In this document: positions 1,367-42,153 of the stretch, one piece after another | Numbering within the stretch: the first letter of the stretch is position 1 | How the letters are laid out: each line of letters opens with the position of its first letter | Source of the DNA: Geothrix paludis | Lineage (GTDB): Bacteria > Acidobacteriota > Holophagae > Holophagales > Holophagaceae | NCBI RefSeq assembly: GCF_022808815.1 | Contig: NZ_JAKZLC010000005.1 | Coordinates: 124,001 to 188,000, forward strand | Direction: 5' to 3' | Length of the DNA stretch: 64,000 bases | The notes under the pieces: generated by a model | Database searches by the model: none | Told to the model about the DNA's origin: nothing | The model's input: only the letters and a program-made list of their open reading frames with translations | Translations under genes and position numbers: made by a program

Positions 1367-1605
1367 TCCAGCGCGCGAGTTCGGCATGATTCGCTCCTTG
1401 TGGGGGCCCCGCTCCGCAGGCTCCCCCGGAGCCTGCTCTGCGACCCACATGGTCAAACTCGCTCCCTGTGGGGCCCCGCTCTGCAGGCTCCCCCGGAGCC
1501 TGCTCCGCGACCCACATGGTCAAACTCGCTCCCTGTGGGGCCCCGCTCTGCAGGCTCCCCCGGAGCCTGCTCCGCGACCCACATGGTCGCGACCCACGGC
1601 ATCGG
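1337..1605. repeat. 67-bp tandem hairpin repeats flanked by 14-bp direct repeats
   Basis: About three copies of a 67-bp unit run from roughly 1386 to 1590, with matching points at 1449, 1516 and 1583; the first copy is about 4 bp shorter. Each unit carries a perfect inverted repeat GCAGGCTCC-CCC-GGAGCCTGC (one arm change in the first copy). The array is bracketed by the identical 14-mer ACCCACGGCATCGG at 1337-1350 (inside the end of the SprT-like gene) and 1592-1605. I see no gene in it; small frames across it are repeats of the same DNA in different frames. Confidence 0.8.
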
Positions 1606-41243: not shown

Positions 41244-41645
41244 ATGGCGGACAAGAAGTGGTTCAAGATCGGTGAAGCCGCCCTACTCATCGGCGTCGGC
41301 CCCAAGGACCTGCGCTACTGGGAAGACGTCATCCCCGACATCAAGCCCCGCCGCAGCAAGGGCAACCTCCGCTACTACCACGTGGACGAGCTGCCCCGCC
41401 TGAGGCGCATCAAGGCCTGGCTGGCCGAAGGCCTCACCGTGGCTGACTGCGCCGAGTTGCTGGCCCACGGCCACCTCGTGCAGCGCCTCGACCTCGGCCT
41501 CGACGCAGAGGAGCTTCCCGCAGCCCCCGCCGTGAGGCCCAAGCCCACCATCCCCCGGCTTCTGCGGACCAGCTCCGACCTCCAGCCCATCCTCAAGTCC
41601 GTGCGCGCCCTGCACGAACGGCTGTCCCATCCAGTCAAACCTTGA
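41244..41645 (+). CDS. MerR-like regulator
   Basis: 133 residues. The N-terminal winged helix ([20 protein letters not shown] then [19 protein letters not shown]) is MerR-like, with the effector part short and without Cys residues. It lies 11 bp after the NtrX-like gene. MerR-type proteins of this short kind often act as plain DNA binders; the target is unknown. Confidence 0.8.
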
Positions 41646-41670
41646 CCTGAGGCCCCACCCGGTCTAGAGT
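41642..41670 (+). promoter_or_regulatory. Promoter of tRNA-Pro
   Basis: TTGACC (41642-41647), a 17-bp spacer and TAGAGT (41665-41670) precede the tRNA by about 10 bp. The -35 box overlaps the stop of the MerR-like gene. Confidence 0.7.
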
Positions 41671-41680
41671 CAATGATTCA

Positions 41681-41757
<77 letters not shown>

Positions 41758-41760
41758 AAA

Positions 41761-41800
41761 CACCAGAGGGGCCCTCGAAAGAGGGCCCTTCTGGTGTTTT
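41761..41800 (+). terminator. Rho-independent terminator of tRNA-Pro
   Basis: CACCAGAGGGGCCCTC-GAAA-GAGGGCCCTTCTGGTG is a 16-bp stem with one mismatch and a GAAA tetraloop, followed by TTTTG. Confidence 0.9.
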
Positions 41801-42153
41801 GTCCCGTCGGGGCGCGTGGGTTCGAACCTCCGAGTGGGATCGTGGAGGCGCCACTAGATGTGGCGCCGGAGCGAGACCGGCGACTGGCGCAGCCAGGCGC
41901 AGTTCGAATCCCGCCCCGATGGGTCGATCCCAACAACGGAGCACGGCCCACCTCCGTGTGGGACCGCCCGAGGCGTGCCTTGATGGCACGCCGAAGCGGG
42001 ACCGGCGACTGGCGCAGCCAGGCGCAGTTCGAATCTCGCCCCGATGGGTCGATCTCAAATACGGAGCAAGGCCCACCTCCGAGTGGGATCGCGGAGACAG
42101 CCCGTGCGCACGCCGGAGCGGGTCCGCCGCAGCCAGACGCAGTTCGAATCCAA
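41801..42153 (+). repeat. Tandem tRNA-like hairpin repeats downstream of tRNA-Pro
   Basis: Three units with matching points at 41826, 41950 and 42075 (periods 124 and 125 bp); the third is shortened. Each has, in order, ACCTCCG(A/T)GTGGGA, a variable hairpin, ACTGGCGCAGCCAGGCGCAG-like sequence (CTGG-CGCAG-CCAG stem), and the T-arm-like GCAGTTCGAATC followed by GCCCCGATGGGTCGAT in the first two. Variable hairpins: GGCGCCAC-TAGAT-GTGGCGCC at 41847-41867 and GGCGTGCC-TTGAT-GGCACGCC at 41972-41992, which differ by three compensated base pairs. The period is not constant modulo 3, so it is not coding. Confidence 0.75.

Follow-up and report, generated by a model that had tools for sequence, protein, structure and literature searches.

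The tandem repeats behind the tRNA-Pro(GGG) gene of Geothrix paludis belong to an undescribed family of structured repeats in the Holophagaceae, which are bounded by tRNA 3′ ends and resemble the RtT repeats of Escherichia coli in architecture. Members of the family lie directly behind tRNA genes, their fold is kept by covarying stems, and an inverted copy of the tRNA T arm at their head follows the sequence of the tRNA to which it is attached. Our tentative reading, held at a little under even confidence, is that the unit is part of a read-through RNA and would work as a cis switch on the pre-tRNA. The first-pass annotation, which had called the array its best candidate for an undescribed element, was right about the family, but the architecture has a known precedent in RtT. 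It missed this parallel, and it also missed the most distinctive feature, namely the inverted T-arm copy that matches the local tRNA.

The window, that is, the whole stretch of 64,000 nucleotides that was analysed, contains the array on its forward strand. The host tRNA-Pro(GGG), which is the source of the tRNA pieces in the units, was located at 41681–41757 (+) by ARAGORN and by the Rfam model RF00005 (60.8 bits). A consensus scan predicts a sigma-70-like promoter, TTGACC-17-TAGAGT, before the tRNA (41642–41670, +), and this is the only promoter-like site that the scan gave between 41550 and 42300. The tRNA is followed by a hairpin (41756–41801, no strand assigned) with 21-nt arms that are 95% complementary, and this is presumed to be the tRNA terminator. 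The first-pass annotation had called it a terminator; it is a strong hairpin, but it has no canonical T-run and was not scored as a canonical terminator by a T-run scan.

Two kinds of tRNA sequence mark the units: T′ is the inverted copy of the tRNA end, and T is the direct T-loop copy that closes each unit. T′ of unit 1 (41806–41833, +) is 28 nt long, is 86% complementary to the 3′ part of tRNA-Pro and pairs with 41728–41755; its best-conserved block is 41818–41833, GGGTTCGAACCTCCGA. The core of unit 1, the body of a three-way junction, occupies 41834–41901 (+) and contains the hairpins HP1 (41847–41867, +; GGCGCCAC-TAGAT-GTGGCGCC) and P3 (41880–41900, +; GCG-A-CTGGC-GCA-GCCAG-G-CGC). It is followed by T (41902–41911, +; GTTCGAATCC), and the pairing of T with T′, named P1, closes the junction. 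In unit 2, only a remnant of T′ is left (41949–41957, +; CACCTCCGT), from which the T-loop part is gone, and the core including T extends over 41958–42036 (+), with HP1 at 41972–41992, P3 at 42005–42025 and T at 42027–42036. Unit 3 (42074–42151, +) is degenerate and shortened, and consists of a T′ remnant (42074–42082), a core (42083–42141) and T (42142–42151). The tandem units begin at about 41818, with a register spacing of 125 and then of 115–125, and units 1 and 2 are 87% identical. The array had been described as three units of 124–125 bp; the tandem array is real, but the third unit does not keep this length. Likewise, the CTGG-CGCAG-CCAG stem that had been ascribed to every unit is present in units 1 and 2 but not in unit 3. 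What had been taken for a T-arm-like motif is a T-loop-like GTTCGAATC(C/T), which ends all three units but is not an intact T arm, and its best-supported pairing partner is the inverted copy, T′.

Several known classes of repeats were considered for this array and rejected. In the window, tRNA alone reaches the Rfam gathering score and no other RNA family does; an array of tRNA genes or pseudogenes does not fit, since ARAGORN and RF00005 detect the host tRNA alone. An integron attC array is rejected because the GTTCGAN of T does not fit GTTRRRY and no genes lie in the spacing. The first-pass annotation had excluded a protein repeat from the period, and indeed only spurious ORFs run across the array, the “GARGFEPP” peptides being antisense tRNA sequence. 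Elsewhere in the window (1391–1588), there is a 67-bp tandem repeat of 2.9 copies, each with a 21-nt near-palindrome, GCAGGCTCCCCCGGAGCCTGC; by eye, it is unrelated to the tRNA arrays.

A DNA search found further copies of the unit in the G. paludis genome and in congeneric genomes. A covariance model, for which 28 first units had been aligned, found 5–18 copies per genome in most well-assembled Geothrix genomes and further copies in three other genera of the Holophagaceae (g19, g20 and g21), while two other families of the class gave no model matches. The unit is also present in the cultured species G. campi. A search for the T-hairpin-T′ arrangement in 297 Acidobacteriota genomes gave 26 positives, nearly all of them from Holophagaceae. 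The link to tRNA genes is tight: six genomes gave 53 model matches, of which 52 directly follow a tRNA gene, or a 3′ fragment of one, on the same strand, and the single exception (in G002) lies 2.6 kb off tRNA-Pro(TGG), with no tRNA fragment seen. Host tRNAs number about nine, namely Pro (GGG, CGG and TGG), Thr (CGT), Arg (CCG and TCT), His, Met and Asp, and in the G. paludis genome a minority of the 46 tRNAs carry a unit. The first-pass annotation had proposed to seek the units in the genomes of relatives; they do occur behind tRNAs across Geothrix, and its idea of a tRNA-derived, structured tandem element with covarying stems is supported by these homologues throughout the genus.

Arrays are also found with tRNA 3′ fragments (L023, L045, L079, L153, L155 and L158). 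These fragments look like the right ends of islands integrated in tRNA genes, and this resemblance suggests that an array moves together with the tRNA 3′ end to which it is attached. The islands measure about 3 to 40 kb and are integrated in host tRNAs at L045 and L079 (Thr), L023, L153 and L158 (Pro), L155 and L156 (His), and L135 (Arg). Their crossover is mostly in the anticodon loop and, at L023, in the T loop, and repeats of the GGTGCTCGTAAGT type beside the left end are common to several islands (L088, L097 and L104). In G. paludis, tRNA-Ser(CGA) is followed by a terminator and a T′-like inverted copy with no recognisable core (L195, G000:C1:1082200-1083000). In another family of Acidobacteriota (L201 in G053 and L202 in G121), tRNA-Ser(CGA) is followed by an inverted T-arm copy and then a short hairpin, and these elements are possibly a third RtT-like lineage. 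At G009:C40 of a metagenome assembly (L196, 17300–19600), an apparent perfect inverted double array forms part of a perfect palindrome that is longer than 2.1 kb and has a tRNA terminator at its centre; the palindrome is probably an assembly artefact, and the locus was set aside.

The first unit is ordered as hairpin/terminator, T′, conserved three-way-junction core and T. The RNAalifold consensus is a three-way junction on the tRNA strand, in which P1 is formed by T′ and T, the stem P2 contains a tandem G-A step and leads to the variable hairpin HP1, and P3 is a CTGGC-NNA-GCCAG hairpin. Pairing is kept in 96.7% of 857 cells, and double changes occur in 13 of 31 pairs. None of 500 shuffles reached either this percentage or the covariation score, and slid structures gave at most 38%, relatedness among the sequences being left in these comparisons. 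In the set of 118 copies, HP1 has 29 distinct stems, with full pairing in 99 of 107 rows. The two HP1 hairpins of the window (41847–41867 and 41972–41992) differ by exactly the three compensated pairs that the first-pass annotation had described. These are two of many stem types that recur across species, so covariation should be judged family-wide, and there the covariance model that it had proposed bears it out. The unpaired purines of the internal loops are near-invariant (columns 41, 60, 160, 162, 163, 167, 168 and 183, mostly 85–99%), whereas stem columns vary. Fixed unpaired bases together with variable paired stems point to selection on the folded strand. As for which strand, G-U outnumbers A-C in P1 by 70 to 13, which favours RNA of the tRNA strand, although these counts are not independent events. 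The same ratio gives no preference in P2 (11:10), HP1 (12:8) or P3 (8:4); thus the core may fold on either strand, possibly as single-stranded DNA. Variants of the unit were also seen. A GGCCACG..CGTGGCC hairpin module followed by AGGATCCAGCGTCGAG lies between T′ and the core at L003, L005 and L009 of G. paludis and at other loci, and occurs at Asp, Pro(TGG) and His tRNAs; the HP1 loop carries a long insertion at L038, L043, L131 and L134.

T′ follows its own tRNA. When T′ is compared with the reverse complement of the T arm of its own tRNA, 15.3 of 17 positions agree (87 loci), whereas shuffled tRNAs give 12.4 (maximum of 500 shuffles, 12.9). At 48 loci of orthologous tRNAs whose T arms differ between species (His, Arg CCG, Pro TGG and Thr), the own arm was the best match at 41, tied at 6 and worse at 1. 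tRNAs without arrays show no T′ (mean match, 9.9/17). The complementarity of T′ is 0.76–0.99 over tRNA positions about 47–62 but 0.3–0.6 in the acceptor part, whose complement lies closer to the hairpin and yet matches worse. This drop near the hairpin argues against simple copying. If hairpin-templated copying were the only cause, the acceptor part should match best; it therefore seems that complementarity to the tRNA itself has been maintained. Maintenance of T′ solely through P1 pairing was considered and rejected, because positions 24–29 of T′ track the tRNA and are absent from T, which matches just GTTCGANTCC of the tRNA, and no other partner for them was found inside the unit. When the tRNA and the unit are folded together in silico, T′ pairs with the T arm of the tRNA at 80 of 81 loci; these minimum-energy folds take no account of folding during transcription, when the tRNA would be the first to fold. 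T′ is mostly decayed in later units.

Since 1991, a single enterobacterial tRNA operon has been known to carry RtT repeats, which to our knowledge have no settled role. In the tyrT-tyrV operon of E. coli (RtT/rttR, RF00391), tandem units likewise stand directly behind a tRNA, and in the rttR unit behind tyrV, part of the tRNA 3′ end in inverted orientation (GGGGAAGGAU) is followed by a hairpin body and then by a direct tRNA 3′ end (AUCCUUCCCCCACCACCA). The Rfam consensus of RtT closes by a T′/T helix, as the Geothrix units do through P1. Both hold tRNA 3′-end sequence, which in Geothrix is mostly a T of about 10 nt and at some loci the whole end. On the other hand, RtT belongs to a Tyr tRNA and the Geothrix family to about nine others (of Pro, Thr, Arg, His, Met and Asp); T′ covers tRNA positions about 47–62, whereas the inverted piece of RtT is the 3′ T stem/acceptor; and, unlike RtT, the Geothrix unit is usually preceded by a hairpin/terminator and has a T′ that varies with each tRNA. 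The best RF00391 score in the G. paludis genome is 22.4 bits (cut-off 45), away from the arrays, and the array loci gave no match at E ≤ 0.1. With no detectable sequence relation, the Geothrix family is not a member of RF00391 but is alike in layout. In the account of RtT in PMC2965389 that cites Bosl and Kersten (1991), it is a transcribed by-product for which a link to the stringent response is suggested. RtT-like sequence is also present inside BIMEs (PMC2965389). The Geothrix units share with REP and BIME elements that they are intergenic, dispersed and hairpin-forming, but they are tied to tRNA 3′ ends in one orientation, at 5–18 copies per genome and with tRNA-specific ends. Movement by a RAYT/Y1 transposase, as for REP, was rejected, since 52 of the 53 matches in six genomes are tRNA-linked and the single Y1 gene of the G. 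paludis genome has no flanking units. Like islands that integrate into tRNA genes, the units rebuild the tRNA 3′ end, add a terminator and use the same tRNAs; unlike islands, they are about 125–200 bp long, gene-free, and have an inverted T arm and a conserved folded core.

The chief rival explanation, a live one although we consider it somewhat unlikely, is that the unit is a very small, non-autonomous insertion element, comparable to an island reduced to its attachment site. It would integrate at the T arm of tRNA genes, rebuild the tRNA 3′ end and be mobilised by a recombinase in trans. Units are repeated one to four times per locus, and the direct repeat of the tRNA end is mostly the 10-nt T only. 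At five loci, however, a complete tRNA 3′ end and a second terminator follow the core (Arg L130 and L136, His L089 and L155, and Met L197, the last in another genus, G076, and L155 in G006), in line with insertion. So are the occurrence of at least two unrelated core types in one slot, the stacking at L155 of two units with another core and terminator before a standard unit, and the use of the same tRNAs by islands whose right ends are a tRNA fragment plus array. The second core type, seen at L155 (tRNA-His) and L197 (tRNA-Met), has a CTCCAGTGGAG hairpin in the same T-terminator-T′-core slot, and its repeats each hold a complete tRNA 3′ end. Against insertion, cores cluster by tRNA: nearest neighbours share the tRNA across genomes in 61 cases, against 23 after shuffling, and share the genome but not the tRNA in 2, against 2.7 by chance. 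Thus, there has been no recent movement between tRNAs. The units spread over about nine tRNAs long ago and have since descended locus by locus, with duplication or insertion taking place locally; genome-wide homogenisation of units is rejected by these counts. In addition, collections of phages, plasmids and viral contigs contain no copy of the unit, no recombinase is tied to the units, and double-stranded attachment sites need no covarying stems with conserved mismatches.

Neutral origin appears improbable. In this scenario, terminator hairpins and T-loop palindromes would cause template switching or slippage and leave inverted and direct copies, with hairpins that are perfect without selection. 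T-hairpin-T′ is in fact an extended palindrome, TTCGAA is palindromic too, paired changes would arise through hairpin-templated correction, and tandem expansion between T copies needs no enzyme. However, such correction should erase the tandem G-A mismatches and favour the acceptor part beside the hairpin, and the opposite is seen. One core body in one orientation, at nine tRNAs and in four genera, is also unexpected from independent accidents, and tRNAs without arrays have no T′. It is very improbable that the unit works as folded single-stranded DNA, a cruciform read by a structure-specific DNA protein in the control of replication or recombination at tRNA genes. The absence of strand bias in P2 and P3 would agree with this, as would the role of tRNA genes as recombination sites in these genomes, but the orientation to the tRNA is fixed in all matches and, with the G-U bias of P1, favours RNA of the tRNA strand. 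No candidate for the protein was found, and the single Y1 transposase of the genome is not flanked by a unit.

The reading that we prefer is a read-through RNA acting in cis on the pre-tRNA. The element probably acts as RNA read through from the tRNA promoter, the only promoter-like site nearby. After read-through of the tRNA terminator, the unit would form a trailer at the 3′ end of the pre-tRNA. Pairing of T′ with the unit's own T would then give a closed, RtT-like RNA that could be released, and pairing with the T arm of the tRNA itself would give a misfolded pre-tRNA. The unit would thus act in cis as a switch that decides what becomes of read-through pre-tRNA, and would also be the source of a small structured RNA. 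The strong hairpin between tRNA and unit counts against a read-through RNA, and so does the decay of T′ in later units. A further proposal, which we regard as unlikely, is that selection maintains T′ as an antisense to the tRNA from which it derives, and that a tRNA-encoded, tRNA-sensing switch arose independently in Acidobacteriota and, as RtT, in enterobacteria. T′ would then capture the tRNA T arm in read-through transcripts unless the core and T sequester it, and the switch would destroy or rescue the read-through pre-tRNA.

With an unrelated family of the same layout at about nine tRNAs and in dozens of species, RtT is no longer a curiosity but an instance of a recurrent design, and the family supplies natural covariation for testing. 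It is unusual for an inverted T-arm copy to keep following its tRNA as the tRNA evolves. This rule allows precise predictions, open to test, on the maturation of tRNAs or on recombination at their genes.
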